In this document: one piece after another, positions 13,174 to 56,776 of the stretch
Position numbering within the stretch: the first letter of the stretch is position 1
Layout: the number at the start of each line of letters is the position of its first letter
Program-made: the position numbers and the translations under genes
The notes under the pieces: generated by a model
The model's input: the letters and a program-made list of their open reading frames with translations, nothing else
What the model was told of the DNA's origin: nothing
Databases searched by the model: none
Source of the DNA: Paragorgia papillata
Taxonomy: Eukaryota; Cnidaria; Anthozoa; Scleralcyonacea; Coralliidae
DNA length: 64,000 nucleotides
Assembly: GCA_035771165.1 (NCBI GenBank)
Contig: JAWNZC010000472.1
Span: 60,001-124,000, forward strand
Reading direction: 5' to 3'

Positions 13174-16100
13174 ATGGCTAAGAACGCTGTGACATTTTTA
13201 TCGACAAGAAAAACTGGTATGTATTTCACTGAGGAACTAGCTTATAAGAGACACTTCGTTATTTATCATTTTAAAATCAATCCTAAAGCAATCTCGAGGA
13301 AATATTCCTATTTCAAAAATCATCATCACCATCATCATCGTCTTGAATATCATCATCATAATCATCATTAGTATCATCACCGCCCTGATCATCATCATTA
13401 ATCATTGTGATCATCATCGTAATCATCATAATCGTGATCATCATCATCGTGATCATCAACATTATCATCATCACCGCCGTGATCATCAACATTATCATCA
13501 CCACCGTGATCATCAACATTATCATCACCGCCGTGATCATTATCATCACCGCCGTCATCATCATCATCATCACCGCCGTGATCATCATCATCATCACCGC
13601 CGTGATCATCATCATCACCGCGGTGATCATCATCATCATCACCGCCGTGATCATCATCACCGCCGTGATCATTATCATCACCGCCGTGATCATCGTAATC
13701 ATCATCATAATCATCATTATCATCATCGTGATCATCAACATTATCATCATCACCGCCGTGATCATCAACATTATCATCACCACCGTGATCATCAACATTA
13801 TCATCACCGCCGTGATCATTATCATCACCGCCGTCATCATCATCATCGCCGTGATCATCATCATCATCACCGCCGTGATCATCATCATCACCGCGGTGAT
13901 CATCATTATCATCACCGCCGTGATCATCATCACCGCCGTGATCATTATCATCACCGCCGTGATCATCGTCATCATCATCATCACCGCCGTGATCATCATC
14001 ATCATCATCGTGATCATCTCATCATCATAATCATCACCACCACCACCACCAAAGGGTCTGCTAATATGGGACATTAGCAAAGCTTGAACAAGCTGAAGGT
14101 GATATTTTGGAGAGAGGAAAACCTGCAAGCCTCCCAAAGTAATTGAAACTAATTAATTTAATAAACTAAACAATTTAATATCTTTCTATTTTGAGGTACC
14201 TTGCATTTGTCACTCCTGGTATTTGCAATAATGTTGGCCATTCCAATCTCATTCGCCAAATGTGTGACAAAAACTATATATTATAGCAATGTTGTTACTG
14301 AAATAACAGCATCGGTCACATTCGTCCGCGAGTTATCAAAATGCCTAAATGAAAAGGTAGGTATTAGTTCTTTTGAATTTAATTTATTTGGATTACCACT
14401 AGTAGAAAGTATATATATAAATAATAGAAGTGAAAATTTGTGGTAAAGGCTCTTTTCCAGTCATCGCAAAAACCAGCTCGCTGCGACGAGTGTTTGCATC
14501 TAATTAAAAACAACTCGTAGTGCTTGTTTTCTCGTTGTGAGTTCTTTTTAATGAGATACAAGTACTCGCAGCAAGCTGCGAACTAGTTTCTGCGATGAGT
14601 GGAAAAGAGCCTTTAGGTCAAGTAAAAAAAACTTATGTTTCTTGTCCGGATTTCCAGCAAAAAGCAGGGAAGCGGGGTCTTCTTTTTTTTTGTCAAAGTA
14701 AGTTTAGGCAAAGGTTCAAAGGCTACACAGTACAGTAATAAAGGGCGCAATGAAATATTAATAACAAAAGGCTTTAGTTTACTGTAGTTTATTTCACAAC
14801 TACCACCACCACCACAACCACCATCACCCCTGGACCACCACCACCAATAACAACAACATCAACACCACCACCAACACTGCCGCAACTACCACCACAACTA
14901 CCATCACCAAACCTACCATCACACCTGGACCACCACCACCAACATCATCATCATCACCAACACCGTCGCCACTACCACCACCAACACTGCCGCAACTACC
15001 ACCACCATCACCACCACCACCAAACCAACCATCACCCCTGGACCACCACCACCAATAACAACATCAACACCACCACTGCCAACACTGCCGCCACTACCAT
15101 CAACATCACCACAACTACCACCACCATCACCAAACCTACCATCACCCCTGGACCACCACCACCAACATCATTATCATCACCAACACCACCGCCACTACCA
15201 CCACCACCACCACCACCACCAACACTATCACCACCACCGCCAACAACAACATGCTTTTAAACAATGTGATTTGTGATTTACTCTAAATTAAAATTATTTC
15301 CTTCTTTCTATTCTCAGTGTGAAAACAAGTTCGGTAGCAAATATTGTTCGCAGCAATCAACAATAAGTATTCCAGGATTCGACCCTTCTTGGAAACTTGA
15401 TAGAAACATGACCGTAAGTACATAGTTGATCACCAAACTGACAAGAACAAAACATATCGCATATCGCAGGAAAAGAGCCTTTAGACAGCGTTAGACAGGG
15501 TAAAATTATCTGGCGTTAGACAGAGTAAAATTGTCTGGCGTTAGACAGGGTAAAATTATCTGGCGTTAGACAGAGTAAAATTGTCTGGCGTTAGACAGAG
15601 TAAAATAGTCTGGTGTTAGACAGAGTAAAATAGTCTGGCGTTAGACAGAGTAAAATTGTCTGGCGTTAGACAGAGTAAAATTGTCTGGTTGCTCTTGACA
15701 TAACTTAAATATGTAAGAACGCCCTTCCGGCTATAGCGAGTTGATGCGAGTTCAGCCCATAAAAACAGAATTAACTCTTCACTCTCATTTTCATTTCATT
15801 TCATTTCAGGAAGAACAGCGGTTGGCAGACAGCACGAAGAGGTTGTTTATACACGAAATTCATCTAAGCGAGGTCAGCAAATACTTTAAAAAAACTACAA
15901 CGCAACCATGCGGGAAACAATTTAAGAGAATTAGGAACAAAACCAGAGGAGTCAGGAAAATTCTAAATCGTTTGGTAAGTTTCTATTCTAACAAAAAATA
16001 ATCCTTAACTATTCACTCTCTCATCTACTTTACTCTGTCTGTCTGTCTGCTTTTCTGTCTGGAGTATGTTTGTATATGTGTCTCTCTGCTCGTCTCTCTA

Positions 16101-16132
<32 letters not shown>

Positions 16133-16267
16133 CTTTTCTGTCTGGAGTATGTTTGTATATATATGTGTCTCTCTGCTTGTTTGTCTGTTTGTTTGTTTGT
16201 TTGTTTGTTTGTTTGTCTGTCTGTCTCTGTGCGTGTCTGTGTGCTTTTCTGTCTGTCTGTCTGTCTG

Positions 16268-16360
<93 letters not shown>

Positions 16361-16860
16361 TTGTCTGTCTGTCTGTCCGAAAGTACTTATGTAAGCCTTC
16401 GCCTACCGCAGCTCGGGTTCACACCTAAACTTTCGAATTCTCCCAGCTCACTCCCGATCATTTTCTATTTCCTAAATATCAACAAATAAATTCCCGACAA
16501 CAGCCAGGTGAAGAATCAGACATAGTTTAACGCTACTTTGGCTTAAAAGTTTTTTGAACGTAGCTTAAAAAGTTACTGTTCATGACCCAACGTTTCGACA
16601 CTCCGATCTAGTGTCTTCATCAGGGGTGACCGTTGTGAAGACAGGTCTTTTTTAGTATATAGCCCTGACTTTGTTAGTCTATATTTTTGCAGCAAAAGTG
16701 TCTTGGCCTCAGTACAGCTATCCAAATGAACAAACCACCGACCCTCGCATCAACCGTGGCAAAGACTGAAAAGGACTGGTACAAAGTGACAATGACGATG
16801 CTCAGAAAATTGAAACAGGATTTTGCCAACATGAAAAATACATTTTCACGATCGACATAG
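13174..16860 (+). CDS. secreted helical-cytokine-like protein, paralog A
   Basis: Join 13174-13216, 14196-14356, 15318-15413, 15810-15974, 16693-16860: 633 nt, 210 residues. Intron phases are 1,0,0,0, with GTATGT, GTAGGT, GTAAGT and GTAAGT donors. Residues 1-35 are a signal peptide with hydrophobic core LLVFAIMLAIPI, cleavage likely after SFA. Exon 2 then gives a probable amphipathic helix A (about 38-68). Exon 3 (69-100) is a loop ending in the sequon Asn98-Met-Thr. Exon 4 (101-155) starts EEQRL and is helix-rich (B and C), with a second sequon at Asn143. Exon 5 (156-210) starts QKCLGLS, has a Pro/Thr loop, then a long helix D (about 182-205). Cysteines are at 37, 64, 69, 78, 134 and 158. 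It is paralogous to B and C in exon layout and junction motifs. Exon order and phases match the vertebrate IL-6/G-CSF gene plan. A cytokine function is inferred, not shown. Confidence 0.8.
13318..14050. repeat. giant ATC/GAT microsatellite with higher-order repeat, intron 1 of A
   Basis: About 730 bases of TCA/ATC triplets punctuated by CCGCCGTGATCA. A block beginning CGTGATCATCAACATTATCATCATCACC at about 13449 recurs at about 13727, giving a roughly 278-base higher-order period. Long His-, Ile- or Met-rich open frames on both strands are artefacts of the repeat. Confidence 0.92.
14444..14615. repeat. MITE in intron 2 of A
   Basis: Ends TAAAGGCTCTTTTCCA and GGAAAAGAGCCTTTA are inverted. Inner inverted blocks include CATCGCA/TGCGATG and AGCTCGCTGCGACGAGTG against CTCGCAGCAAGCTGCGAA. 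An isolated end (GGAAAAGAGCCTTTAGAC) is at about 15471. Confidence 0.85.
14798..15250 (+). repeat. CAC/CCA-rich minisatellite in intron 2 of A
   Basis: ACCACCACC runs organised around a repeated CCATCACCCCTGGACCACCA block (about 14820, 14920, 15040 and 15140). Confidence 0.88.
15480..15690 (+). repeat. 25-bp tandem repeat in intron 3 of A
   Basis: About eight copies of GGCGTTAGACAGAGTAAAAT plus TGTCT. Its core is the same GTTAGACAGAGTAAAA(T) motif dispersed singly through the window (for example 21305, 28370, 47260, 61045, 63485). Confidence 0.9.
16035..16380 (+). repeat. CTGT microsatellite in intron 4 of A
   Basis: (CTGT)n with CTGTTTGT variants over about 345 bases. A TCTGGAGTATGTTTGTATAT block is duplicated at about 16059 and 16141. 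Cys/Leu/Val-rich frames are repeat artefacts. Confidence 0.95.
16482..16675 (+). repeat. half copy of dispersed element (intron 4 of A)
   Basis: Shares with 58337-58520 the run CAGACATAGTTTAACGCTAC, TTAAAAGTTTTTTGAACGTA, CATGACCCAACGTTTCGACA and TCTAGTGTCTTCATCA. It ends just upstream of the exon 5 acceptor of gene A. Confidence 0.75.
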
Positions 16861-18990: not shown

Positions 18991-19014
18991 GTTTATCCAG
19001 TATAAAGTTACAAG

Positions 19015-29135: not shown

Positions 29136-29380
29136 TTTTGTCACATGCTTGGGGAAAGTCAACATGTATGCTAATCAAGAAGTTAAAAGAAGGTACAGAA
29201 GTCATAACTGATTCATTTAATAGTATAGAAATTACAAAACCGTAAAAACGAAACAGCAAGAACACTTAATCGCGCTTAAAGACCTGAACGGCTACACCCT
29301 GGGTCTCCATAGCGAACGCACTAAATTTAGCAGCTTGATTATGTATGCAACTTCCGGTAATTACCGAAAGCAAGCGGCAG

Positions 29381-29540
29381 TATAAAGGCCGGTAGTTTTT
29401 CAGTCAAACTCAAACTAGTGCTACCAGAAGACAAACCACAACTCAGAGATTCTACAAAAGTTGGATTGTATAACTATTTTGAAAACTTTGAAAGTATCTT
29501 CGAATATTTTGAAAGATCGATATGGAAAGAAATCTAAGAG
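29381..29540 (+). promoter_or_regulatory. duplicate promoter and first exon of ligand gene B
   Basis: TATAAAGG at 29381-29388, a TCAGTCAAACTC initiator-like sequence, a 5' UTR, and the same 19-nt coding start (ATGGAAAGAAATCTAAGAG, 29522-29540) followed by a GTAAGG donor. It could be an alternative first exon of gene B or the remnant of a lost sister gene. Its TATA box is closer to consensus than that of the downstream copy. Confidence 0.6.
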
Positions 29541-29573
29541 GTAAGGTCTCTATAAGTCTAACTGATATTTCGA

Positions 29574-29627
<54 letters not shown>
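29574..29627. repeat. TA microsatellite
   Basis: About 26 uninterrupted TA dinucleotides inserted in the upstream copy of the gene B promoter duplication. Confidence 0.97.
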
Positions 29628-29628
<1 letters not shown>

Positions 29629-29689
29629 TGAGTTTTGGTTCACGAAATGTTAGAGAGTGCTCAATACCATATATAGATAGAGAAAAATA

Positions 29690-29830
29690 CAAAGTATGAA
29701 GTATAGTTTTACCTTAAAGTCTTCGCTACCAGAGGTTTCACCCTAAACGGGATCATCAGTCGCCTGATGACCCGTTTAGGGAAACCTCTGGTAGCGAAGA
29801 CTTTAAGGTAAAATTATACTTCATACTTTA
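29690..29830. repeat. near-perfect hairpin
   Basis: Arms beginning AAAGTATGAAGTATAGTTTT pair with a mirror ending ACTTCATACTTT. The tip is GGGATCATCAGTCGCCTGATGACCC. Confidence 0.92.
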
Positions 29831-30439: not shown

Positions 30440-31095
30440 ACGGAGAGAACGGCTACACCCTGATCATCGAGGGTCTCCGTAGCGAACGAACTAAATTTAG
30501 CAGCTTAATTATTTATGCAACTTCCGCCGGTAATCACCGAAAGCAAGCGACATTATAATAAAAGCCGGTAATTTTTCAGTCGAACTCAAACTAGCGCTAC
30601 TATAGAAGACAAAGCACAGCTCAGAGATTCTATACAAAAGTTGGATTATCACTACTTTTAAAATTTTGGAAGTATCTACGAATATATTTTTCAAAGATCA
30701 ATATGGAAAGAAATCTAAGAGGTAAGGTCTCTATAAGCCTATAACTGATATTTCGACGTCGTAAGTTTGAGCCAAACGAGTCCCAAGTTAAAATAACAAC
30801 TTTAATATATATGGTTTATAAATCGATAACAACGCGTTAAGTAATCTTTTCATATTGGTAGTATACAAGTTGTACATAGTTATTTCATTGTATTGCCAAA
30901 TATTTCGTGTATTTTTATCCGTGTACGGTGACCCTAAAGAGGTCGAAAGTCGGAACAAGATGCGGGTAATACCCACAACTTTGAAGCCACTAAAATGCCG
31001 TCATAACATCGATGTGGTCCACACAAGATCCACGACGTCAAATAAAATTCCAGTTACTAACAAACAATAAAACTCTGAAAACAATTATTGTGGGA
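30440..31095 (+). repeat. segmental duplication, downstream copy
   Basis: Partner of 29275-30130. It contains the copy of promoter plus exon 1 used here for gene B. The homology continues into a tRNA-SINE-like patch (about 30300-30430 and 31295-31410). Confidence 0.88.
30555..30590 (+). promoter_or_regulatory. TATA-like box and initiator of ligand gene B
   Basis: TATAATAAAA at 30555-30564, followed by TTTTTCAGTCGAACTC, gives a 5' UTR of about 120 bases before ATG 30703. An upstream ACCGAAAGC motif is conserved in both promoter copies. Confidence 0.5.
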
Positions 31096-32090: not shown

Positions 32091-35000
32091 CCAAAAAAAA
32101 TTATTTAATTACTCCTTCAACTCTTTCGTAGGGTATGAAACGTTTTGTCACAGCTCTGTTTAACGTCAGACTATTTTAAATCTAAACTAACTTTAATAAA
32201 ATCGAGGATTTGTGGAAACACCACGTTTATAAACAATATATTGTTTATTATTATATGAAATAGAGTGTTTCATTGATTTTCCCGCCACTAATAAAAGTGA
32301 TAATCTCACATGTGGGATTATTTATGATAATCGCACATGTGACGATTATCGCTGATTCAGCATTATAGTTTAATGAAATTTTTGCAAGGCAATAGGACAA
32401 TTTTTTTATATAATAAACAGAACAATACATGGATGTGCGGAAATATGAAATTTATTTCTCGTGTTGAACAGGATATGTCACTCGTTCGCTTCGCTCACTC
32501 GTGAGATATCGGGTCAACACTCAAAATAAATTTCATATTTCCGCACATCCATGTATTATTCTCTATATATTGAGCTTTCTAAACTAACTTTGTTTATACC
32601 AGATACCCCTATAGGTCATATCACAACTGTTCTCGCTATATAGAGGTCCAGTAAGGGTCATCCTTCATTCACTCATTCATCCATCCATCCATCCATCCAT
32701 CCATCCATCCATTCACTTAATTTTCATTTCACTTGTGAAATTACTCCAACATACATTTTAGAAACATCAAGAAGAAGAGTGTCAACATGGTTGCCTCTAC
32801 TATTGTTCGTGACTGGCATGGCACCCGTTGTTCTGGCAACACAACCTTCACCCGAACAGCTTTTCAGAAATCTCAAATATCAAAATCTTCTTAAAAACTC
32901 AGAAAATTTGAACGAAGATCTCTTTCAAACAATACATGAAATAGTAAGTATATCAGCATATACTACAGTAACAAGATGCTCTAGTAGTATAAGCGTTCAC
33001 TCATGGCTCCCTTAATTAGATGCTTGGGCATAACCTGAACCTGTTGACATAGCCTCCTAAGGATTACAATGTGGCCGTGTCGAGGCATATCAAAGGCGCT
33101 TTAAGCAGCCGCCATACGACACAGTTCAGACCACGGATCCCAGCCAACCCCTAGGTGTTGATTTTACGGAGGGAGGAAAACCGGAGAACCCAGCGAAAAA
33201 CACTCGGAGCACAGGAGAGACCAACTAGGGGAGAGGGAAGAGAGGGGGAAGGTAAAGGAAGAAAGGGGAAGGAGAGAAAGAAAGGGAAGACGGAGGGAAG
33301 AAAGGGAAAGTTAGAGTAAGCCTTCACAGTAGGGTGATCCTTTCAGGAGGATCAAGAGATATCCCCTATTTACATGGTGTAGGGTGCCCCTTGTAGCAGG
33401 GCTAACTCCTCTAGTAGAGTCACGCTCCCTATGCGTGGCCATTTTGCTATATTCAGAACGTTATACCCTGACGTCGCTGTTTCATAATCTAAAATGTTGT
33501 CACAACGTTGCCTGCTGTCAAATTTTCGATATTAAGCCCTAATCAAACGAGAACGCAAGTCATCGCAAGTTGGCAGTCAGAAATTTCTGTGGCGGTCGTT
33601 CAAACACCCAAATTAACAAAATAAAGGTTTCACGAGTGTTTTAAACAAGTTTTAACTTTGTCACGGTACATGATATTTTCGGGAAACTATTCAGAGCGGC
33701 TGGCTGAGATAGCGTGACTGCCAACTTGCGATGACTTGCGTTCTCGTTTGATTAAACTAAACCTATAGGCCGGCAAAGTTCCGCCATCCTTAATTTCCTG
33801 GCTTGAGCCAGCAATATAGTGCCGTCCTTATAGCCTACAGAGCGGGGGAAGGGAGAAATCCCCACCCCTCCTCACCTCCTACTGAAACGCTTGCGTTGTC
33901 TTGGATAATTCCTGATCTACAGGACCAAATACAAAAGCTATACCAACTCGTAACTATCATCGAGAATTGCCAGAATACAATCGTTATTTTCTTTCTACAG
34001 AAATCCAAAAATCTACAAGGCTATAACGACCAGGACAACAAAAGAATATTCTACAAACCTGCATACAAACTAAATATGACAGTAAGTAGAAAATATAAAG
34101 CGACTTTATTTCTTCAGCGTAACCAGTGCTGTAAAAGTTACATAATTTTTGTAACTATAGTTACAGTTACATCGTTAGAAAAGTAACTAGTTACCGATAA
34201 AAGTTACAATGAAAAGAAAGTAACTAGTTACAGTTACAAAGTTACTTCAAAAATTTTGTAACTAGTTACAAAGTTACATTCCTTTGTCCGTGTTACTAGA
34301 ATCAACAAAGAAATTACTGGTTTTTAGATACCAGTACCATAATTATGTTTTTACAGCTAAATGCCTAAATATAGATGTCACTAAGCAGAAATAGTCAAAT
34401 GTGTACATAATGTACCTTTATTATTATATCAAAACCATTTTTATCAAGAAAGAATGATATCCTCAACTGAATATCAGTAACTATACTAGTCACATTTTTG
34501 AACCAAATATTGTAACTAGTTACAGTTCTTTAAAAAAGTAACTAGTTATAGTTACTTCTTCAAAAAGTAACTAGCTATAGTTACAGTTACTTCTTCAGAA
34601 AAAGTAACTAGTTTCAGTTACAGTTACTTAAAAATGTAACTAGTTACTGTAACTAGTTACTTGTACCGAAGTTACTCACAGCACTGAGGGTAACATATGA
34701 CAGTATTTAGATGCTGATAACCCAATGACCTTCACCCCTTGATGGAACTGGTTCGTAGAATTAACTGAGGAGACTATGGTGTTGATTTTGTGGAGGGAGG
34801 AAAACCGGAGAACACGGTGGAAAAACCTCGAAGTACAGGAGAGAACCAACAACTCTACTCACATGAAGCTAATGTGGTCACCTGACTCACCCATCCGAGT
34901 ACCAACTTCTTTCGAGCAAATTTAACATTAAGGCGGTTTTCCACTAGGCAAAAAATGTCGCTTCTTGCGACAAAAATGTCGCTTCTTGCGACATTTTCTT

Positions 35001-38000
35001 TTTTGTCATAAGCTCTTTGGTGGAACAAAAATTAGTCAAAACAAAAGCAACAAGTCTCTTTGCTCGAAAAACTATCGCTCAGTGGAAAACAGCGCTTTAA
35101 TGGCGAGAGGTGGCTTGTGCCGCCTGTGCCGCCACAAAGAGGAGTGACGTCAGTGAAAATGATATGTAGTCGCATCATTTCATTGAATTGGGAATTTAGG
35201 ACACCAGGGGAGTATGGGCGACGTGTGCTGTTAGCGCGCTGCCTCTCGCCAAAAGTTAAGCCCAGTTAGACGGGGTTGGTACTTGGCTGGGTGACTGCTT
35301 GGGAATGACCCCGTTGTCGAGCTTGGAACTCATGCGAGTAGAGTTGTAGTTGATCTCTCCTGTGCTTCGAGGGTTTTTCGCCGGGTTCTCCGGTTTTCCT
35401 CCCTTCGTAAAATCAACACTTACATCATGGTGCATTTTGCCCTGTTTGACCACCAGTTGCTATAGGCGATCAAGTTATTAAATCTAAATCTAACCAATAT
35501 TTACACCCAACTACTATTATGCCACTTTAGGAAGAAGAACGGTTGATCGACCAAATTGAAACCCTTCGGGTGTTTCTAATTCCCCTTGGAAAAGCTTGGA
35601 AAGAACTACAGACGACGTCGACAAGACACACTTATGGAGACGTGAGGAAACTCCGCTCGAAAGTCGTTGACATCCTTTTTACAATCACATATGTCGTAAG
35701 TAAAATTATCTATACACACCTCCCTATCATAGAGGTGTTAGTGGTTAGCGCAGGTGCCTTTCACATTTACAACCAGGTTTGATTCCTGTTCTGTGTAGTT
35801 ATCAGAGTGCAGGTTTAATGCTGTAGTAACACTAGATCAATGAAGGATGGCCCTTACTGGATCTCTATGGAAAACAGTTTAGACTGATGACTGATATTGA
35901 GTTATCCAATATAAATAAAGTTAGAAGTAATATTGGGCATTTCACTCGACTACATATCATGTTCTCAGGGTTTTGGGTGAAGGAAAATTCGAGTGTAGAA
36001 TATATACATTATAAGACCAGACCGGGACCAGTTGCGAAAAATGCAACTACACAGGCCTTCCGGCAGGAATTGAACCCACGACCTTGCGATTCTAGTGCAA
36101 TGCTCTGACCACTGAGACACGGAGGGCGTTGCCGAGAGCTTGATCGCGAGTTCTGTATATATATTAAGGTGGTAATGCCAGGAGAGAATTGGGTATATTA
36201 TAAGTAATATTGGGCATTTCACTCGACTACATATCATGTTCTCAGGATTTTGGGTGAAGGAAAATTCGAGTGTAGAATATATACATTATAAGACCAGACC
36301 GGGACCAGTTGCGAAAAATGCAACTACACAGGCCTTCCGGCAGGAATTGAACACACGACTTTGCGATTCTAGTGCAATGCTCTGACCACTGAGACACGGA
36401 GGGCGTTGCCGAGAGCTTGATCGCGAGTTCTGTATATATATTAAGGTGGTAATGCCAGGAGAGAATTGGGTATATTATAAGTAATATTGGGCATTTCACT
36501 CGACTACATATCATGTTCTCAGGATTTTGGGTGAAGGAAAATTCGAGTGTAGAATATATACATTATAAGACCAGACCGGGACCAGTTGCGAAAAATGCAA
36601 CTACACAGGCCTTCCGGCAGGTATTGAAACCCTCTGGTATCCTCCTGTAGTAACACTGGACCAATGAGAGGTAGTCCTTACTGGACCTCTACTAGTGAGA
36701 ACAGTTTAGATGAATGGTAGGGTTATCCAGTATAAATAAAGTTAGTCTAGTTTCCTCCTGTGGTAACACTGGACCAATGAGAGATGGTCCTTACTGGACC
36801 TCTACTAGTGAGAACAGTTTAGATGAATGGTAGGGTTATCCAGTATAAATAAAGTTAGTCTAGTTTCCTCCTGTAGTAACACTGGACCAATGAGAGATGG
36901 TCCTTACTGGACCTCTAGTGAGAACAGCTTAGATGAATGGTAGGGTTATCCAGTATAAATAAAGTTAGTTTAGTTTACTCCAGTTTCCTCAAAATGGCGA
37001 CGCCCATATGATACCTATTTGTTCACACATGAATGGATCATTTTAAAACAAAATGTTAACCAACCTTTAAACATGAAAGTTGTTTCCGTTCAAGTAATCA
37101 TCCATAAGACACTAAAAATAGAGAAAGTTATTCGTGAATTATAAATTACGAAGAGATCTTTAGTACTATTTGTAGTTTTGTAACAGCTTTGCATGGTGAA
37201 TAATGTAAGATATAAATTCTTACGGATATATTTGCAAGTAGATTTTCGCCACTGAACTACTTTAGACAATCGCATAAGAGCCAAAAAATGTGTAGGAAGG
37301 ACGCGCGGGGGAGGGATTTTTGGCGGATTGCGAAGGAATTAAAAGTGCCAGCATTTAATTAACTGGGCGGTAAACCAGTTTTCTGAGTTGGGTATTTTTG
37401 TTTTGTTTTGTTTTGTGTTGTTGTTTTGTTTTGTTTGTTGTTGTTGTTGTTGTTGTCGTCGTCGTTATCGTCGTTGTTTTCCATCAGACGAGTAAAATCG
37501 CCTGGCTTGGGAGTGTAGTGCCGCCCAGAACGATACAAAAGATACCATATACGAGTGACAAAATTCTGACGTTTATATAGCTCCCTGCTCATGTGTTCCC
37601 ATGAATTGTGTATATAAACAGTGCTGTGAGTAACTTCGTTACAAGTAACTAGTTACAGTAACTAGTTGCATTTTTAAGTAACTGTAACTGAAACTAGTTA
37701 CTTCTTCAGAAGAAGTAACTGTAAGTATAACTAGTTACTTTTTGAAGAAGTAACTATAACTAGTTACTTTTTAATTTAAAGAACTGTAACTAGTTGCAAT
37801 ATTTGGTTCAAAAATGTGACTAGTATACCGTAGTTACTGATATTCAGTTGAGGATGTCATTTTTTCTTGATAAAAATGGTTTTGATATAATAATAAAGGT
37901 ACATTATGTACACATTTGACTATTTCTGCTTAGTGACAACTATATTTAGGCATTTAGCTGTAAAAACATAATTATGGTACTGGCATCTAAAAACCAGTAA

Positions 38001-38427
38001 TTTCTTTGTTGATTCTAGTAACATGGACAAAGGAATGTAACTTTGTAACTATAGTTACAACATGTTTGAAGTAACTTTTTAACTGTAACTAGTTACTTTC
38101 TTTTCATTGTAACTTTTATCGGTAACTAGTTACTTTTCTAACGATGTAACTGTAACTAGTTACAGAAATTATGTAACTTTTACAGCACCCTCAATAACGA
38201 GTTTTCGTTGTTCTATTTTCAAGGCAAAGCACCTGGGTTACTCTATACCAAACTACGACCGAGTGAAAGCCAAACAGACATCTAGCACCTTACTATTCCC
38301 TAAAACAACACGACCTCTGGGAAACCGCGTTGTCAGTTTGCTCCGATGCCTGCAAGATCAAGTGGTGTTCATTCAGTTTTACTACCGCAACAACTATCAA
38401 CAGCAAAGAACGATGGTCCGAAAGTAG
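30703..38427 (+). CDS. secreted helical-cytokine-like protein, paralog B
   Basis: Join 30703-30721, 32762-32943, 34001-34081, 35531-35695, 38224-38427: 651 nt, 216 residues. Intron phases are 1,0,0,0, with GTAAGG or GTAAGT donors. Residues 1-32 are a signal peptide (Arg-rich n-region, core LPLLLFVTG, cleavage likely after VLA). Exon 2 continues with a helix (about 36-67). Exon 3 (68-94) is a 27-residue loop ending in sequon Asn92-Met-Thr. Exon 4 (95-149) starts EEERL, has exactly the same length as exon 4 of A (165 nt), and is helical. Exon 5 (150-216) starts AKHLGYS, then a loop, then a helix from about 182 with the only mature-chain Cys (191). Lack of the six cysteines of A means the fold cannot depend on them. 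The intron-1 acceptor ending TTTTAG is weaker than the others. The upstream twin exon 1 (29522-29540) would encode the same start. AATAAA is at 38655-38660. Confidence 0.77.
31190..31300. repeat. palindromic dispersed element in intron 1 of B
   Basis: CCTTAACAGGCAA at the left mirrors TTGCCTGTTAAAAGG at the right, around GGCTAACGCCAGGCGAGTTT plus ACTCGTCAA. Confidence 0.65.
31690..32020. repeat. inverted pair of tRNA-derived SINEs
   Basis: The minus-strand copy (about 31690-31830) and plus-strand copy (about 31870-32020) both contain GAGTTCCAGTGGCTCAATGG (box A region) and CATTCGGAAGGTTGTG, and both reach the tail GTTTAACTTAC. In the plus copy box B is GGTTCGAGTCC, intact. They lie head to head and could form a long stem in the pre-mRNA of gene B. 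Confidence 0.85.
32055..32091 (+). repeat. ATT microsatellite
   Basis: About eleven ATT triplets in intron 1 of gene B. Confidence 0.95.
32420..32562. repeat. hairpin MITE in intron 1 of B
   Basis: CAATACATGGATGTGCGGAA is mirrored by TTCCGCACATCCATGTATT. The arms run through AAATTTATTTC, with the tip at CTCGTTCGCTTCGCTCACTCG. Confidence 0.9.
32668..32712 (+). repeat. CCAT microsatellite before exon 2 of B
   Basis: About nine CATC units ending roughly 50 bases upstream of the exon 2 acceptor. Confidence 0.92.
33060..33230 (-). repeat. truncated 5S-derived SINE (tail and body)
   Basis: Minus-strand tail like the one at 62870-62990 (GAGGCATATCAAAGG, GACACAGTTCAGACCAC), followed by GGTGTTGATTTTACGGAGGG and AACACTCGGAGCACAGGAGA. 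The 5S head is missing. A GGGAAGA-rich purine tract follows to 33310. Confidence 0.75.
33534..33755. repeat. MITE family M3, copy 2 (intron 2 of B)
   Basis: Full-length, with the AAGCCCTAATCAAACGAGAA left end and the mirrored right end. Confidence 0.9.
34122..34686 (+). repeat. GTAACTAGTTAC element, copy 1 (intron 3 of B)
   Basis: Begins CAGTGCTGTAAAAGTTAC and ends TTACTCACAGCACTG, with many GTAACTAGTTAC palindromes and a unique middle (GTACATAATGTACCTTTATT). CAGTGCTG ends suggest a hAT-like non-autonomous element. An inverted copy lies at 37619-38191. Confidence 0.88.
34775..34935 (-). repeat. 5S-derived SINE, partial
   Basis: Minus strand: GGTGTTGATTTTGTGGAGGG, then CTCGAAGTACAGGAGAGA, then box C remnants (CACCCATCCGAGTACCAAC). 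The head is truncated. Confidence 0.8.
35222..35445 (+). repeat. 5S-derived SINE (intron 3 of B)
   Basis: AAAGTTAAGCCCAGTTAGAC, GGTTGGTACTTGGCTGGGTG, CTCTCCTGTGCTTCGAGGGT, GGTTCTCCGGTTTTCCTCCC and AAAATCAACACTTA in order. It ends about 85 bases before exon 4 of B. Confidence 0.88.
35925..36640 (-). repeat. tandem array of a tRNA-derived SINE, 277-bp period
   Basis: AAGTAATATTGGGCATTTCA starts at 35925, 36202 and 36479, exactly 277 apart; the third unit is truncated into the 122-bp repeat. On the minus strand each full unit has GTCTCAGTGGTCAGAGCATT (box A), GGTTCAATTCC (box B, once GTGTTCAATTCC), TTGCATTTTTCGCAACTGGT and the tail ATATTCTACACTCGAATTTT. Confidence 0.92.
36630..36985 (+). repeat. 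122-bp family, three copies (intron 4 of B)
   Basis: Three units with TAGTAACACTGGACCAATGA (the middle one TGGTAACACT), GAACAGTTTAGATGAATGGT and CCAGTATAAATAAAGTTAG. A single unit also precedes the SINE array at 35815-35925. Confidence 0.9.
37395..37478 (+). repeat. TTTTG/TTG/TCG simple repeat (intron 4 of B)
   Basis: TTTTGTTTTGTTTTG followed by (TTG)n and GTCGTCGTCG. Confidence 0.9.
37619..38191 (-). repeat. GTAACTAGTTAC element, copy 2 (intron 4 of B)
   Basis: Reverse complement of 34122-34686 over its length, ending about 30 bases before the exon 5 acceptor. Confidence 0.88.
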
Positions 38428-46659: not shown

Positions 46660-47990
46660 TAGTAATGTGTAAAAGGGCAGCGATATGCATGTGTACTGTG
46701 TGGCTGAACGACAATATTAGCTAAAGTAATAACGGTCGTTCACGATTGTTGAAACAGAGGACAATACTTTGTAGGGGACAATAATGTTGATCATTGTTAA
46801 CACGCGTCGTTGCAGCTTTGATGGCATTGAACTGTGTTTTATAACAACATTATTTAGAGAGCTGTCTACACGGCTCAACGTTTTCTGAGTGAGTATTAAC
46901 ATTGAACGACAGCTTGTATAGCAAGAACTAACAACACTTAACATTATTAACATTTCAAAAGATCGACATTGTTCACAGAGACATCATAAGCACAACATTG
47001 TCCGTTGTTGGCGGGGCAAACGTTCACGTTTGTATAAACACCTTCAACAGTTTGAGTTTCATTATACGTGTTATATTAATGAAATTATCAGAAATGCGGA
47101 TTATTATATGTGGCCACAATTTAGTCAAAACGTTGAATTCTCGATAACGCGGTACAATTATGTAGTTGAAGTTTCGATGGCAGGGATATGCTCAGTGGAT
47201 GTTCTTTTCATTCGTACTGTTGTCGTGGGACAACTTTATCTTTTTATTTTATCTAACGTCAGACGATTTTACTCGTCAAGGCGACGGAGACGTCTCGGAA
47301 ATCCATGCATAAAAGGACATATAGTCAATTATAGGCCGTTACAATTACTACCAGATTACAAACGACCGTCATTATTCAGGGGATTTTTATTGTTTAATAA
47401 TTAAAAGTAATAAAGTATGACTCACTAAAGGAACAAATATTGACTTCGTTTATATACAGTATAGCGAATCTGAAACTACGCTATATAGATTGACCTTTTT
47501 AGAAATGATATTAGGGCTCATCAACGTAGTTTCTGGCATATCTTTTTTGGGTTTTCTTCGAAAGGTACCGAACTACCGGATGCTAACGGAGAATGTATAG
47601 AAGTCTAACGTTTCGGGCGAAGGCCCTTTGTCATAGAGAAACGTAAAGAGTGTAAACAAACAACGAGCTTATGTTAGACTTCTACGTTATCTGCATATTT
47701 CGGCAGTATATCTAACCTTACTAATGTGTAAAAGGGCAGCGATATGCATGTGTACTGTGTGGCTGAACGACAATATTAGCTAAAGTAATAACGGTCGTTC
47801 GGGACGGAAGTGAAATCGCTGGGATATCTTTTTTGGGGGTTTTTCGAAAGGTACCGAACCACCGGATGCTAACGGAAGAATTCAAGTCAGCAAAAATATT
47901 ACCGTTATAGTTTGTAATGAGTAAGATATAACCCAAATTTGTAAAATGACTGGTTTACACGAACGGATAAAACGCGATGGATGTACGAAG
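46660..47990. other. upstream region of ligand gene C with duplicated blocks
   Basis: TGTGTAAAAGGGCAGCGATA through AATAACGGTCGTTC occurs at 46666-46744 and 47724-47801. TTCGAAAGGTACCGAAC(T/C)AC plus CGGATGCTAACGGA occurs at 47557-47590 and 47847-47877. M1 fragments are interspersed. No exon recognised. The duplicated blocks lie within 1.5 kb of the start of gene C. Confidence 0.5.
47806..47815 (+). promoter_or_regulatory. ETS-IRF-composite-like motif upstream of ligand gene C
   Basis: GGAAGTGAAA matches the GGAANNGAAA composite element consensus known from vertebrate immune genes, about 290 bases before the start codon of C. A single 10-base match is weak evidence. Confidence 0.2.
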
Positions 47991-48099: not shown

Positions 48100-51000
48100 A
48101 TGAAAACTAAATGTGAGTACTCTTTTTATTTTATTTTTATTTATTTATTTTATTAGCTTCGCCATAGACTTGACTAAATACATGTGTGGTATCACAAAAT
48201 AAACTAAAACGAGGACCATTCAAACACAAACACAAATTTAAACCTATGGCGGGGTCACCACAACAGCGTGAAGGCCAATTACTGTGGGCCCAAAAATATT
48301 AAAGTTAAAGTAAAAAATTCTAACAAAACTTACACAATATACAACATACATGCAATATAGAAATAAATACTAAAAACAGCAAGTAAAGCTGCGGGTATAA
48401 AGGCCTGGCCAAACGCTCTCAACATTTCATGCAACATCGTTCAACATTGTTGAACGCATGTTGAACAAAAATTTGAACATGTTCAAATTTTGTTCAACAC
48501 CATTCAACAACGTTCAACATCATTCAACAGGGTGGCCAAACGCTTTCAACATGTTGAATCACGGTTGAATTCAATAATGTTGAACGATGTTGCATGAAAT
48601 GTTGAAAGCGTTTGGCCAGGCCTTAAGACTACGGGAATTGTTACTATTTGGACATATAGTTTTGAATGACATATAGTTTTATAGTTTTTAATGAAGTATA
48701 TTGACTTTTAGAAAATAACTTTTGTTTTTAAACAAAGTTTGTATACATACATGTAAACAACACTGTAATAAAACGAAGACGGCTATAATGCAGTAGTTAC
48801 AGGAACAACCGACTGTAATAATGGCTACACTGGAATACATTGTCTTTCAGCATTATCTTTGAACCTTTTGTACTTTTTATATAAGTTTGTATAGTATACA
48901 TACATAGCTATCATAGCTATACATAGCTATATCATAGCCGAACAATCGACTTTAACAATAGCTATACTATATGAAAAATAATCGAAATATAGTAAGGTTA
49001 GATATACTACCGAAACAGAGAACGTAGGAGTCTAACGTTTCGAGCGAAAGCCCTTCGTTAGAGAGAAACCAATCAGTTTCGGCAGTATATCTAACCTTAC
49101 TATATTTCGATTGCTGTTTCAACACTGCCTACGCAGAACGCTACTTTTATTTCACTATATGAAAAATAGCTTGTCTTTTCAAAATAACCTTTGTTTTTAT
49201 ACATACACGTTTTTTTCTGTACTCGTATAGTGAAAGAATCACTGAAGCAAATGATAAACCTTTTTCCCTCCCATTCATTTTTCTTTTTAACTTACTGAAT
49301 CCTAGATGTAGTACCTCGATTGTATTTAATTATTGGTTTTCCCCCTAGTATGTGTTTCCATGGGCGAAGCCCTTCTTTCCGCGTTTATCTGTCGGTTGAA
49401 ATAAAGGTTTCTTTGTCGTTTTTCGAGTTTCAAGAGCTATCGGCACTTGACGGAAGGTATACCAAGACAATTACTGTTCTTCCGAACCGAAATAGCGTCA
49501 TATCATATTTTTATAGTCAAAATGGAAACACCTTCCCACTTCTTCTTCTGTAGTTTGTTGTGTATTACTGTATTTCTGTAGCTAGCCACTACCAGAAACG
49601 TGAGAAAATCTAGCGATAAAAGTCGCTTATTAGTCTTGATTTATATTTGTTTTTTGGTATCGATTTGGGAGAAACATTCGTTATACAGTATTATGATTAA
49701 ATTCCATGAATTGCTAAATTACATGTATAACTTATATAATACAGTAATATAATACACAACAAACTACAGAAGTACAAGTGGGAAGGTATTTCCATTTTGA
49801 ATGTAAAAGAAACTAAGCTATATACTTAACCTTGCTCTGGAAGCATTTGTTATAAATAGAAATTGATTGAAAATCTCAATAAGGTAAAGTGTTAAAAGTG
49901 TGTTAAAATGACAGATTACGACGGCGAATCATTTGGGTTAAAGCTCAAATTAAGACTACACCCAAGAGTCGCGAAAAAGAGTCTTTTGTTGCAAAACGAA
50001 CCCAGAACCTTATAGGAATCTGGCCGATTCCACCGAGCTATGAGGACTGTTACCGAGAACCTAGTCGCCAGTTTTATATATGTATAGTTTTAGGAAAATA
50101 CGGGTGGGGTTAGACTTGCTCGAAGTCCTCCTCTTCTTTTTCGGGTGGGCGAGAGGCAGGCAGACAGGCGGGGGGAAGGTCGGGCGGGCGCTCCTCTCCG
50201 GCCAATTTTCGTTTCCCGGATACGGGCCGGCCGCCGTTCCTCCCGCTCGCCTGCCTCTCGCCCGCTCGAAAATAAAGAGGCGGACTTGAAGCAACTCACC
50301 GCTGCGTCTGAAGTTGAGCCCAGTTAGACGGGGTTAGTATACTTGAATGGGTGACCGCCTGTCTGAGCTTAGGACTCGTGTGCATGGGGGTAGTGGTTGG
50401 TTCTCTTTCCGCCTTGCAGGTTTTCCGCCTTGCAGGTTTTCCGCCTTGCAGGTTTTCGCCTTGTAGGTTTTTCGTCTTGCGGGTTTTCCGTCTTGTGGGT
50501 TATCCCCCTCAAATTCAACCGTCTGCCACGCAGGCTATGTTCTCTCCTGTGATTCGAGGGTTTTCACCGCCACTTTCGACGGTTATAAAGCCGGTCGGAA
50601 GAACTTACAGGATGGCGTGGCATGGCGACACCATAACGACGATTGATATGGCGGGAAGGAAAACAATGCCAGTGGAATTTACACGCATAAAACCGCCCAC
50701 ATAAAACGCATAAAAGCAGACATAAGTATTTTACTCGCCAGACGATTTTAATAGTTACTTGTCAAGTGGAGAACCCTCGGTAGTGAAGGACTTAATACCT
50801 TTTCACTTTCCATTTATCATATACGGCAGACCGCAGAAAACGTTTTCGTCCGGTCGGTGCTAAGGAAATAGAGATTCACTATTTATATTCGATATAAGCT
50901 GTTCCTTTTTAAATGTGGTTTAACTTAAGGCCCGTTTACACGTGCGATTTTTGATGCGATAAATATCGTGAACTTGTGGCATCGGCACATAATTCTTAAT

Positions 51001-54000
51001 CGCGGAAGGCGGTTTTTCCGTTGGGGAGATTTTTCGCGCGCAAAAATCTCTGATCCGCGAGAGGGCTCGATCGCCCAATCGTCCGATCGATTGAAACCAT
51101 CAGATCAAAAAGAAATCACAGTGATTGCGGAGATTTGGGCAACCGGAGCGACCAAGACAATCCTATGGAAACCAGGCTTAATATCGCGGACTAACGTTCA
51201 CATACAGTCGGACACAATCAGAACAGATCTAAGAAAAACTTTTAAAATGTTATCATGGTAATAATGTATAAAAATCCTGAGAGTTGTTCGTCTTTAATTA
51301 AGAGAATTTTTTTTATATAATAGTTAATAGTCGAATAAAGTTGTCCATCACTAGCGTATTGAACATATAAAAGTTATAATTTATATATTTGGCATTATTT
51401 AACTTTTATTGTTAATATATAGAATATAGTAAAGAGAAAATGCTTAGCAAGGTGGTGGTAGTACTGGTAGTTGTAATGGTATTGGTACCTGTAATAGTGG
51501 TTGTGGTGCTACTACAGGTGCTGGTGGTAATGGTGACCCTGGTGGTAGTGCTTGTAAGTTGTGGAGGTGGTGCCCAGGGCCGCCGAGAGCTATGATGGGC
51601 CCCGGGGTAAGTCGAATCGCGTCAAAATGTTGAATTTTTAGACGGCCAGGAGGCCATTTTGGGCTATTTTGAATGTAAGAATCATGTTAGTTTGGCCCAG
51701 GTCGTAGACTGTGGTAGCAGGCCCCTTGTGTGGTCCGGGCCCTGGGGCAGTTGCCCTGGCTACCCTCCCCTTTCAGCGGTCCTGGTGGTGCCACTGGTAG
51801 TGGTTGGGCTGCTGTTGATGGTGGTGGTAGTAATGGTGCTGGTGAATAATGGTGGTAGTAATGGTAGTAATGGTAGTAGTGTGCTGGTGGCTGTGATAAT
51901 GCTGCTGTTGGTGGTACTTGTGGTAGTAGTGATGGTGATAATGGTTGCACTGCTGGTGGTGATGGTGTTGCTGCTGCTGGTTGTGGCTGTAATAATGGCA
52001 GCATTCATTCTTAAATTTATTTGCTTATCTCTTTACTAGGCAATTCGCTATGTTTTCGCATCATTGCTATACCATTAATGCTTGGCTACGTAGTGGCGAT
52101 AACCAGTCAATATTATAATAACCTAATAAGCCAAAGTAACTACACAATTTACATTGTGAAAAAGGCAAAAGAACATTTAGTGAGTAAAATTGCTTTTTGT
52201 TTTTACGTTGTTGAGTATTAATGAAGCATATTTTCATTATTTTGTCTGGCAATTTATCATTGGCATTTATAAATTCTCCCTATGAATTCTATTTACAGAT
52301 AGGCAAGCTCTCAATAACCGACCCAATGCTCAATCCAAGCAAAAAGAGCTGGCATTTTGGAGTATCTGATTGCTGGAATACTAGTTTGACAGTAAGTACA
52401 GTATTGTGTGTTGTCAACTGTGAACAATGTTGTGTTGTCAATGTTGTGTGACTATGAATTTGCAACCTTAGCTAGTCTTCATCTGAGCCTTAGTGGCTCA
52501 ATGGTTAGAGCATCTAACCAGTCATTAGAAGGTTGCAGGTTCAAACCCTGGTCTGGGGCTCAGAAATCTTTTCTGAGTAACTGAGCTTGACGAACATCCA
52601 CCAAACATCTGTTATTACACCAAGCTCGCAAACGTACCACATGCACTACATGTATACGTACAACTTATTTTAACTGTGAACAATGTTGTATGTGTTGTCA
52701 ACTGTAAACAATGTTGTGCTGTCAACTGTAAACAAATATGATGTGGTGCTAACCGTACATGTTGTATTGCCGACTGTGGACAAATACAATGTTGTGTTGT
52801 CAACTGTAAACAATGTTGTGCCATCAACCATGAACAAATGTTGTGCTGTCAACCATGAACAAATGTTGTGCTGTCAACTGTGAACAATGTTGTGTTATGA
52901 ACTGTAAACAATGCTGTGTTGTCAACTGTAAACAATGTTGTGTTGTCAACCATGAACAAATGTTGTGTTGTCAACCATGAACAAATGTTGTGTTGTCAAC
53001 CATGAACAAATGTTGTGTTATCAACTGTGAACAATGTTGTGTTGTCAACCATGAACAAATGTTGTGTTGTCAACTGTAAACAATGTTGTGTTGTCAACCA
53101 TGAACAAATGTTGTGTTGTCAACCATGAACAAATGTTGTGTTGTCAACCATGAACAAATGTTGTGTTGTCAACCATGAACAAATGTTGTGCTGTCACAAC
53201 CGTGAACAATGTTGTGCTGTCAACTGTGAACAATTAATTGTGTTGCCGAATATGAACAATATGGGACTAGAACTTAACTAAATGAACTAAACTAAACTTA
53301 ACACTAAGCAAAGTAAAACAAAGACACCTACTGTTATTAAAGAATGTTGCCCCGTCTTCCGTCTTCCTCAACTTCTGAATGTGCTTTCATTTTGTAAAAT
53401 ATCCCGGTCATGGTCAGTGAGAATGCTAATGACAGCTCAATAATGTACAGTAATTCTCCTTATGCCAATAAGTATTGGAATTACAACCAAAATGAACCAA
53501 AACAATTTAAAAGGTCTCCATTTTACAGTTAAATACAAACGAAAGTGTAAGCTTTAAAAATTTTGAGGCGGAACAAGGAAGTTACTGCGCATGACAAAAT
53601 GCAGCGGTCAGTTTTGGCGGGAATATTTAAAATCCAATTAGGGACGGACCATTAGATTTTTGAGGGGGGGGTTGGGCAATTACCAAAAAAAAATTCGAGC
53701 ACAGCCTTATCCTGGGAAAAAAATATCGTGCACAACAAAACCCCAAGAAAAAAATATCCTGCAAAGTACCATGTTTTCTAAAAATAGAAAAATATTTATA
53801 TAGAGTCCTGAGCAGATTGCCACAACACAAAATAAATCACAAGCTATGAATCTTGTCAGGTCACTGCTATTAAATAGTGCAACAAACACATTCTGCAGTT
53901 TACTTCCATTTTAACAATGTAGAGCAGCTGCTCACTAAATACAAAGATATTATTTTGCATTGTAAAAACACAAATATTATTAGTCTCAGGCGCGCAACTA

Positions 54001-56776
54001 GGGGGGGGGGGGGGGTTGGGGGGGGTTGCAACCCCTGCCCTTTTTGTGAGACTTCTAATACTAGGTTAGACATTAGATAAACAGATAATTAATCGTCTGT
54101 TGTTGTACGCGATACAATTCTCCGCAAATCTGGCGAGACTCAGAGGCTTCTAGCAGTGGGCCCGGGCGGCAGCTAGGCTGAATATAATTATGATAAATTT
54201 TAAATAATGCGAGACCAAAATAAAAATTTCCGCAACCGAAAATACGAGAAAAGCGTCCTCAAAATGCAGGAAATGCTGTTTCATAGACCCAAAATTCAAA
54301 AAATTTCCGGGGGGGGCATGCCCCCGGACCCCCCTAGAATCTCTGCTTGGCTTATACTCCCAAATTGTTTAGAATACTGAATGACTTTGCCCTTTTTTTG
54401 CGTTCAACCCCTGCCCTCGAAATTTTCTAGTTGCGCCCCTGAGTCTTTTTAGCGCATAATTTATGATTGTCTATATATTCAAATACTTTCTTGTTTTTAT
54501 GATAAACTCAACATTTGTATAGCAAAACATCATTTGTGAAAACATAGATATATTCAATGACACTTAATATTTTAAAGCTCTGTGTGGTCCTTTTCACCAA
54601 TTTGGTGAAAAATCTCCCACACAACGCATTAAAATAGTATTTAAGTGTCATCTCATATCATATATAGTCAGGGGTGGATTCAGACTCATCTGATAGGGGG
54701 GAGCATATTTTTCAGGGGGGTGTACCCTTCTTTTACTGTCAAAAATTGCATCATTAACATAAAAACTGTTTGTCATAAATTATAAAATCTCAGTATCCAT
54801 TGGTTAATGACTGATATGGCCCATTGCGTAATTGCTTTGTGGTTGTATCTGTATCCTTTCTAGTATTGCTATAAACGTATTGTATGTGTTGGACATTAAC
54901 AAACATAGGCTCACAAAAAAATATCCTGCAAGCAAATGATGTCGAAAAAAAATATCCTGCACAACCTCGAGCGAAAAAAAATATTCCTGCACCAAAAAAT
55001 TGGCCAACCCCCCCCTCAAAAATCTAATGGTCCGTCCCTTACTAGTATATTGTTAATTAGTTTTATAATTAGTTCATAATTAGATATTTCCATTTATTAT
55101 TATAAAATAAACGCTAAAATTCCATCTTTCAGGAAGAGGAGCGCCTGAGCGATGACTTCAGGAGACTTAGAATCCTCAAACAGTATGCGGTGGCTTTGAA
55201 AATTTCGAGCAAGAACTACGTAAGAGCAAATATTGCTCGGGAGATAAGCAATCTGTATCGAGCAATTAACAAAGCGGTAAGATGATTTTAATAAAAAATT
55301 GATTGCTAGTTGCCAGTAGCCTGCATCACAGATGCTCGCAAGTGGAAAGGCGTGGGCAAAAAAGAGGGTAAAAAAAGGGTGGGACTATGTTTTTCAAATT
55401 TCACACAGGCTAAGATGTAGAGTACTGTATTTCATTATTAAACCTATTCTTTGCAGTTTTCTATTGTTTTCACTTTACTCTATTTAAAACACTGCCTACG
55501 TCAACCTCGTAACCAGGATCTTATCTCCGCTCGCAACGGGGTCTAGCGGCGAGCGTAGACCATTAACTGGATTTCCACCAGGCGTAAAATATCGCGCGCT
55601 CGACTTTTCTATTGTACAAATTGAATAGTTTTCTACTTCGTTCCACATGGAAACTCACAAGACAAAGGAAAAAGGTCGAGCGCGCGACATTTTACACCTA
55701 GTACAAATCCAGCTTTAAGCTTGGATACGAGGTTGTGCCTACGTAGCGGTCTACTTAATTATCACATATAGGGTCACCAAGAGGCAATTTGCCCATATGC
55801 CTCTCATACACTATGGGACCTCAGAGATCAAGGGGCCTCACAGAAATTATTTTTCCAAGAGATCTTTAGCATACCAAAAGGGCCCACAATATTAGCAAAA
55901 AGTAGAAAAGTAGAAATTTCCCAGGGACCATGCCCCATGCACCCTTGTAAGGGGCCTCCATCAAACCATTTTGCACTAGGCCTCATCCAGTCATCTCTCT
56001 GTTAGCCTGATTATCAGACGGTATGGTGTTCGCTCACTCCACCTCCCCGTCTGATGGACTTCACGGGGTTTCATGTTCTGTAACGTATTATCCTTTGTAT
56101 TGCAGCAGCCAATCGCAATGCATTTGTTTCACTTTTCGGGCTTCCTTGCATACATAATTAGTTCTCAAAAACTAAAACCTTCACTCTGATTGGTTAAAGG
56201 ATAATACGTCACAGAACATGAAACCCCGTGAAGTCCATCAGACGGGGAGGTGGAGTGAGCGAACACCATACCGTCTGATAATCAGGCTATCTCTCTGTGG
56301 GCCTGATTACTTAAAGTTATTTGACACACCCATTTATGAAACAGTATTGTGTCGTGTGTCGTACATGTTCAATAATTTAAGATTAGGTATTTTGTGTCAC
56401 GTGATACCCTATTATGTCATGGCAACGCCCATGGCAACGCCCATGACCAGTTACTAAGTAATAATTCCTCAGTGACTTTATAAAATTTGGCAAAAGTCTA
56501 CTGTTCTTTCTTTTTGAGGAATGTTATATTTTTCTTTACAATAATTATACGATATAAGCTCTTGTACTTTCTAACCCAATGTTTTTGCTTCTCTCAAAGA
56601 AAACCACACTGGGCTATTCTCGAACCATTCCAAAAGTTCCAAAGATTGTCAGTCATTTCAATGCAACTACACCACGAGAACAACTCCTGATTGACGTGCA
56701 TTTTTTGGCTACACTTCAAAAGAATTTACTCCTGATAATGCACGATTTCTCCCAAAGGACCCAACCAACGGCTTAA
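48100..56776 (+). CDS. secreted helical-cytokine-like protein, paralog C
   Basis: Join 48100-48112, 52040-52179, 52299-52391, 55133-55276, 56600-56776: 567 nt, 188 residues. Intron phases are 1,0,0,0. Exon 1 is only 13 coding nt with a strong GTGAGT donor, 3.9 kb upstream of exon 2. I chose it because it supplies an ATG, the required phase and a coherent signal peptide (MKTKC then core IIAIPLMLGYVVA; cleavage near 24-27). Exon 2 continues with a helix and sequon Asn38. Exon 3 (52-82) ends with sequon Asn78-Thr-Ser then LT. Exon 4 (83-130) starts EEERL and is helix-rich. Exon 5 (131-188) starts KTTLGYS, has sequon Asn151 in the loop, then a helix (about 157-180). There is one mature-chain Cys (76). 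Introns 1 and 3 are swollen by repeats. AATAAA is at 56936-56941. Exons 2-5 are firmer than exon 1. Confidence 0.75.
48400..48625. repeat. hairpin MITE in intron 1 of C
   Basis: AAGGCCTGGCCAAACGCT is mirrored by AGCGTTTGGCCAGGCCTT. The interior is made of GTTCAACA/TGTTGAAC palindromes. Confidence 0.9.
48970..49150. repeat. MITE family M1, copy in intron 1 of C
   Basis: AATCGAAATATAGTAAGGTT at the left is mirrored by CTAACCTTACTATATTTCGA, then AACACTGCCTACGCAGAACG. Confidence 0.85.
49517..49800. repeat. MITE family M2, copy 2 (intron 1 of C)
   Basis: Same ends and interior as 24912-25200. The interior is slightly rearranged by an extra ATACAGTAATATAATACAC stretch. Confidence 0.88.
50090..50285. 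repeat. GC-rich inverted repeat (intron 1 of C)
   Basis: GGGCGAGAGGCAGGCAGACAG is mirrored by CTCGCCTGCCTCTCGCCCG, with GGCGGGGGGAAGGTCGGG and CCGGCCGCC inside. It is strikingly GC-rich against the local AT background. Confidence 0.75.
50297..50600 (+). repeat. 5S-derived SINE with internal 17-bp expansion
   Basis: Head: GAAGTTGAGCCCAGTTAGAC, GGGGTTAGTATACTTGAATG and GGTGACCGCCTG. The body is interrupted at 50409-50512 by about six tandem copies of TTTTCCGCCTTGCAGG (with CGTCTTG variants), then resumes as CTCTCCTGTGATTCGAGGGT. Confidence 0.78.
50700..51430. other. intron 1 of C, AT-rich part
   Basis: Contains a CGCCAGACGATTTTA dispersed motif at 50738 and a sequence at 50932-51180 bounded by TTAAGGCCCGTTTACACGTG and ATGGAAACCAGGCTTAA, likely a diverged MITE. 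No exon in the required phase. Confidence 0.4.
51435..52005 (+). repeat. GGT/TGGTAG minisatellite in intron 1 of C
   Basis: GGTGGTAGTAATGGT-like units at 51448-51575 and 51780-52005, separated by GC-rich sequence with GGGCCC palindromes. It ends about 35 bases before the exon 2 acceptor. Confidence 0.88.
52412..53240 (+). repeat. 25-bp minisatellite in intron 3 of C
   Basis: Units of the form TGTTGTGTTGTCAACCATGA plus ACAAA alternate with TCAACTGTGAACAA variants for over 0.8 kb. The array starts about 20 bases after the exon 3 donor. Confidence 0.95.
52485..52615 (+). repeat. tRNA-derived SINE inside the minisatellite
   Basis: Box A region GTGGCTCAATGGTTAGAGCA, box B GGTTCAAACCC, then CTGGGGCTCAGAAATC and a tail CATCCACCAAACATCTGTTA. 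A tail-sharing copy is at 63040-63150. It splits the minisatellite array in two. Confidence 0.82.
53641..55038. mobile_element. 1.4-kb TIR element with nested MITE (intron 3 of C)
   Basis: Ends GGGACGGACCATTAGATTTT and AAAATCTAATGGTCCGTCCC are inverted, followed by G or C runs and repeated AAAAAATATCCTGCA motifs on both sides. Nested at 53982-54446 is a second element with ends AGTCTCAGGCGCGCAACTAG and CTAGTTGCGCCCCTGAGTCT. No transposase recognised. Confidence 0.82.
55565..55714. repeat. MITE in intron 4 of C
   Basis: CTGGATTTCCACCAGGCGTA against TACACCTAGTACAAATCCAG, with GCGCGCTCGAC mirrored by GTCGAGCGCGC. Confidence 0.82.
56003..56290. repeat. hairpin MITE in intron 4 of C
   Basis: TAGCCTGATTATCAGACGGT is mirrored by ACCGTCTGATAATCAGGCTA. 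Arms of about 100 bases are nearly perfect, the longest in the window after 39001-39310. Confidence 0.93.

Follow-up and report, generated by a model that had tools for sequence, protein, structure and literature searches.

What do three neighboring genes on one contig of the anthozoan cnidarian Paragorgia papillata encode, given that their small, apparently secreted products resemble no known protein family by sequence? The genes lie in a 64,000-nucleotide (nt) stretch, hereafter the window, that spans positions 60001-124000 of a 1.62-Mb contig (JAWNZC010000472.1) in a genome of 617.9 Mb and 473 contigs (GCA_035771165.1). An earlier note on this DNA described them as a tandem family of secreted, helical cytokine-like proteins. 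Our analysis confirms a tandem gene family of three homologous members and partly supports the interpretation given in that note; we consider it probable that the family encodes fast-diverging, secreted long-chain helical-bundle ligands resembling class I cytokines. The term "helical cytokine" is our best inference for these genes rather than a demonstrated fact, and the four-helix fold and the receptor are putative.

We rebuilt the gene models on the plus strand from splice signals in the DNA alone, obtaining three adjacent genes with five coding exons each. The encoded proteins are 210 (gene 1), 216 (gene 2) and 188 (gene 3) residues long, exactly the lengths given previously. All exon frames are open with GT-AG ends, and the identical five-exon layout that had been claimed is borne out by intron phases of 1, 0, 0 and 0 in all three genes. 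Each gene also begins with a tiny coding exon, as is characteristic of long-chain class I genes. The exons, by position in the window, are:

13174..13216, plus strand: gene 1 exon 1, 14 codons and 1 nt; TATA box 89 nt upstream of the ATG
14196..14356, plus strand: gene 1 exon 2, signal peptide and putative helix A
15318..15413, plus strand: gene 1 exon 3, putative AB loop, NMT at its end
15810..15974, plus strand: gene 1 exon 4, starts EEQRLAD; helices 2-29 and 35-54 predicted by AlphaFold2
16693..16860, plus strand: gene 1 exon 5 (includes the stop codon), putatively the CD loop plus helix D
29522..29540, plus strand: gene 2 exon 1 copy a, MERNLR and 1 nt; TATA box 141 nt upstream of the ATG
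30703..30721, plus strand: gene 2 exon 1 copy b, same peptide as copy a, in a repeat ~1.18 kb downstream of copy a
32762..32943, plus strand: gene 2 exon 2, signal peptide and putative helix A
34001..34081, plus strand: gene 2 exon 3, putative AB loop, NMT at its end
35531..35695, plus strand: gene 2 exon 4, starts EEERLID
38224..38427, plus strand: gene 2 exon 5 with stop, starts AKHLGYS
48100..48112, plus strand: gene 3 exon 1, 4 codons and 1 nt
52040..52179, plus strand: gene 3 exon 2, signal peptide and putative helix A
52299..52391, plus strand: gene 3 exon 3, putative AB loop, SLT at its end
55133..55276, plus strand: gene 3 exon 4, starts EEERLSD
56600..56776, plus strand: gene 3 exon 5 with stop, starts KTTLGYS; residues 25-53 predicted by AlphaFold2 to form one helix

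The three genes are related through exon 4, whose homology was upheld by exon-start ranking and by shuffle tests. With the same exon order and the same phases, this homology sustains the description of the array as a tandem family. Shared motifs had been reported at two exon borders. The one at the exon 3/4 border, T/EE[EQ]RLxD (the slash marks the border), withstood exon-start ranking and shuffling, and the strong motif claimed for the exon 4/5 border was weakened by exon-start ranking. In the window plus a 200 kb flank (264 kb in total, of which 5 kb is N), E[EQD][EQD]RL is encoded five times and is preceded by AG only at the three known exons. Potential N-glycosylation sites are located just before the same border in all three proteins (NMT at 98 and 92, NTS at 78). 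Outside these features divergence is strong, as the earlier note had stated: when each protein was searched against the host genome, it recovered its own exons only, plus a single chance-level match (E 2.29, gene 3 query). Since none of the three queries recovered the other two genes, further paralogues may exist.

This shared architecture also bears on whether the genes are relics or mis-joined, that is, pseudogenes or exons of different genes in chance order. Some features would fit such an origin: in models built from DNA, roughly 1 to 4 kb separate the first exons from exon 2, some splice sites are weak (acceptor scores of 4.4 for gene 1 exon 2 and 3.9 for gene 2 exon 2), and neither AATAAA nor ATTAAA occurs less than 1 kb past the stop in gene 1, whereas one or the other does so in genes 2 and 3. 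Chance joining would nevertheless have had to give three genes with common exon order, common phases and a homologous exon 4, all with open frames and GT-AG ends, and decayed copies are unlikely to keep every frame. We therefore regard this explanation as very improbable.

Upstream of gene 3 exon 1 and of gene 2 exon 1 copy b, only a TATA-like stretch is seen, and counts of promoter motifs (STAT, kB, IRF and others) in the 400 bp upstream gave nothing informative. A duplication (window 29301-30101 and 30471-31056) covers the promoter region of gene 2 together with its first exon and part of its intron 1; the eight aligned pieces are 88-95% identical, and both copies retain an intact coding first exon. 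This arrangement represents either alternative promoters or the remains of a partial gene duplication. Gene 1 intron 1 contains a long CAT/ATC-type repeat tract (window 13241-14077) in which several frames are open on both strands; this is low-complexity sequence and no gene.

Hydropathy, used here in place of a trained signal-peptide predictor, gave the same picture for all three proteins. Each has a single hydrophobic stretch, which is N-terminal and of the signal-peptide type, and past residue 45 no 19-residue window exceeds 1.6. Given this N-terminal stretch and the lack of any later window suggestive of a membrane span, the proteins look secreted, in line with the original claim, and fall in the range of about 160-220 residues without a membrane anchor.

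To the extent that structure could be predicted, it points to long helices. AlphaFold2 was given single exons with three-sequence alignments, with gene 1 as the target for exon 4 and gene 3 as the target for exon 5. Exon 4 was modeled as a two-helix hairpin (helices 2-29 and 35-54; mean predicted local distance difference test score, pLDDT, 86.1). For exon 5, residues 1-24 had no regular structure and were followed by a helix at 25-53 (mean pLDDT 73.2, ~93 over residues 31-50). In length and order, the elements of these exon-level models match adjacent helices B and C, a long CD loop and a long helix D, and the predicted helix lengths of 20-29 together with the long loop suit the long-chain class I group. 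In a class-I-cytokine-like ligand, exon 2 would encode the signal peptide and helix A, exon 3 the AB loop, exon 4 probably helices B and C, and exon 5 probably the CD loop and helix D, and the mature chain would fold as an up-up-down-down bundle.

The exon 5 model also bears on the choice between class I and class II, the IL-10/interferon group, which likewise has five-exon helical cytokine genes and in which IFNL2/3 carry an additional first exon that splits a codon (PMC2654155). We consider membership of class II highly unlikely. The model of exon 5 is a long loop and then one long last helix, which argues against it, and the rule that class II introns do not split codons, from which IFNL2/3 are excepted (PMC2654155), is broken by the phase 1 first intron of all three genes.

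Several observations weigh against class-I-cytokine-like ligands. Chou-Fasman propensities, a crude method, call much of exon 2 strand-like, which speaks against helix A as far as the method is trusted. The structural models cover single exons and were made from only three sequences, and helical hairpins are common. From exon 4 onward, an excess of helical moment over shuffled sequences is clear for gene 1 only (0/1000 shuffles), with p values of 0.034 for gene 2 and 0.080 for gene 3. Cysteines are not conserved: gene 1 has six (37, 64, 69, 78, 134, 158), gene 2 has one (191), and gene 3 has three (5, 9 and 76), with 5 and 9 inside the presumed signal peptide. Finally, a survey published in 2026 that covered 18 phyla or subphyla and began from known query sequences places IL-6-family ligands in vertebrates only (PMC13203501).

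None of the database searches gave a significant match, by profile or by sequence, to any known family. Pfam searches up to E 10 returned four families (best E 0.024), each matching one of the three members, and the two for gene 1 were below the family cut-offs; an Upd model, which Pfam contains, was absent among the four given for the three proteins. A PDB profile match to a 1347-residue chain, mL100, had an E value of 0.00037 but extended over 24 positions with no stretch passing by itself; another, at 0.013, was to a chain that is designed, going by its name, and the best of the single-sequence PDB searches was no lower than E 0.12. No relatives were found among 206 pattern matches in viral contigs, or in a protein collection for either the alignment (1159 candidates) or gene 1 (68 candidates); this collection, which we presume to be mainly prokaryotic, carries little weight. 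Thus the predicted invisibility to sequence search holds for Pfam, PDB, the viral contigs and the protein collection by the searches tried. Such a lack of matches is as expected for helical cytokines, since their families are undetectable to one another by BLAST (PMC2654155). Among the literature matches listed, there was no report of a cnidarian helical cytokine, with subscription papers mostly outside the search.

The same lack of any convincing profile or structure match would also fit the main rival explanation, a lineage-specific secreted all-helical family unrelated to cytokines (an antimicrobial, venom, matrix or egg protein) whose layout and size are coincidental. Such a family would also be compatible with the unconserved cysteines and with models covering parts of the fold only (exons 4 and 5), and the a-priori chance of one ancestral 1-0-0-0 pattern is a few per cent, as we estimate from general intron phase frequencies. 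However, coincidence would have to account for size, signal-peptide-like start, helix lengths and long CD loop all agreeing with class I cytokines, and for a tiny phase 1 first exon, phase 0 later introns and tandem clustering that fit them as well. On balance we judge an unrelated helical family unlikely and favor class-I-cytokine-like ligands.

If the genes do encode such ligands, the product would be released as a signal, perhaps inducibly, and would join two copies of a class I cytokine receptor, possibly a CRLF3-like or a gp130/Domeless-like chain, and this pairing would start JAK/STAT signaling. Duplication and rapid divergence would let the paralogues take different receptor pairs or escape microbial interference. 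Elsewhere in the genome, a STAT5 SH2 query detected one exon with 50% identity over 40 residues, which contains GTFLLRFSD and scores as SH2 (E 4.7e-07); from the query used and our reading of the motif, this exon appears STAT-like. In the 2026 survey, JAK and STAT appear from Porifera on and IL6R from Mollusca on, with insect Upd and a crustacean lectin domain given as further ligands (PMC13203501). The class I receptor CRLF3 has been reported in animals from Cnidaria to mammals, with an endogenous ligand described as unknown (PMC6797617). A survey of coral receptors uses neither "cytokine receptor" nor "JAK" in its main text (PMC9897584).

We hold a further claim only tentatively and think it somewhat doubtful: that the genes are true homologues of the GH/IL-6/EPO superfamily, that a class I ligand gene with the five-exon 1-0-0-0 layout predates the cnidarian/bilaterian split, and that the array provides the missing ligands of cnidarian class I receptors, CRLF3 included. 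If the array does encode signals of this kind, such messengers would have arisen in animals much earlier than thought, with the ligand dated before bilaterians, the cnidarian array would be a partner for old receptors, and the orphan receptor CRLF3 would become testable in an animal group that possesses it.

We also noted other genes in the window, the flank and the genome. Pfam scans of the window used single open frames; read-through frames with X at stops remained empty even over the PP2C-like gene. This gene is represented by minus-strand exons of a PP2C-type phosphatase, presumably the PPTC7 orthologue, at window 59884-63446, with one exon giving a PP2C match that is weak and falls short of the Pfam cut-off (E 0.0026, 17.9 vs 20.3 bits) and another none. 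Upstream of the array are plus-strand frames at 5604-5912, 9057-9293 and 1141-1446, of which one is cysteine-rich and opens with a signal-peptide-like segment and the other two each have a transmembrane stretch followed by a short basic tail; they possibly encode two small type I membrane proteins; Pfam gave no match for 5604-5912 and none above the cut-off for 1141-1446. A 160-residue plus-strand open frame at 46922-47401 weakly matches a baculovirus helicase profile, short of the Pfam cut-off (E 0.0006, 17.9 vs 25 bits), which is probably due to chance or transposon debris. The downstream flank encodes, on the minus strand, a CD36-family domain in one open frame (L011:2626-4197), a RING/TRAF-zinc-finger/Kelch open frame (L016:994-2613) and a second Kelch open frame (L016:6958-7797). 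In the genome, a DsRed query identified one GFP-like gene of two exons (L032 and L033; 47-48% identity) with the chromophore letters QYG. Its best PDB matches (among the best 60 of 315 matches) are 8rzz, 2rh7 and 2vad; 2rh7 is from Renilla, a sea pansy, and 2vad from Discosoma. The gene appears anthozoan-like and points to an anthozoan host, perhaps an octocoral, and on this ground we rejected amphioxus, a candidate host in view of its own cytokines of this type. A search of the genome for mitochondrial COX1 gave no match.

Among known systems, the long-chain class I cytokines (GH/PRL, EPO, IL-6, G-CSF and IL-11) are about 190-216 residues long with a signal-peptide-like start, as are the coral proteins. 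Phases 1-0-0-0 are the pattern of the GH, IL-6, EPO, G-CSF and IL-11 genes, so that the number of coding exons (five), the tiny size of the first one and the phases all agree; predicted long helices, a predicted long CD loop and low identity between relatives are further likenesses. The coral family differs in its cnidarian host, its exon 3/4 motif and cysteines not common to the three proteins, and has no detectable sequence similarity to class I cytokines. The insect Upd proteins, likened here by description only, are invertebrate Domeless ligands that activate JAK/STAT and have been modeled as leptin-like four-helix bundles (PMC13203501, PMC5385356), whereas the Pfam scan assigned no Upd family to the coral proteins. 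A second invertebrate precedent is the amphioxus GH-like molecule, a 208-residue type-I helical cytokine that shares little identity with those of vertebrates, and amphioxus has further genes of this type (PMC9010856); that animal is a chordate, whereas ours is an anthozoan. The interferon-lambda/IL-10 family is also multi-exon and clustered, but lacks split codons save in the extra IFNL2/3 exon, where the tiny first exon stops within a codon and the introns that follow are phase 0; the coral genes have a phase 1 first intron. Interferon-lambda was recognized by small size, secretion, lack of similarity, clustering and gene structure, layout being used because sequence search fails for helical cytokines, with a caution about false positives (PMC2654155). 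By the same reasoning, gene layout and the exon 3/4 motif, instead of sequence search, offer a recipe for finding more genes like those of the coral array.
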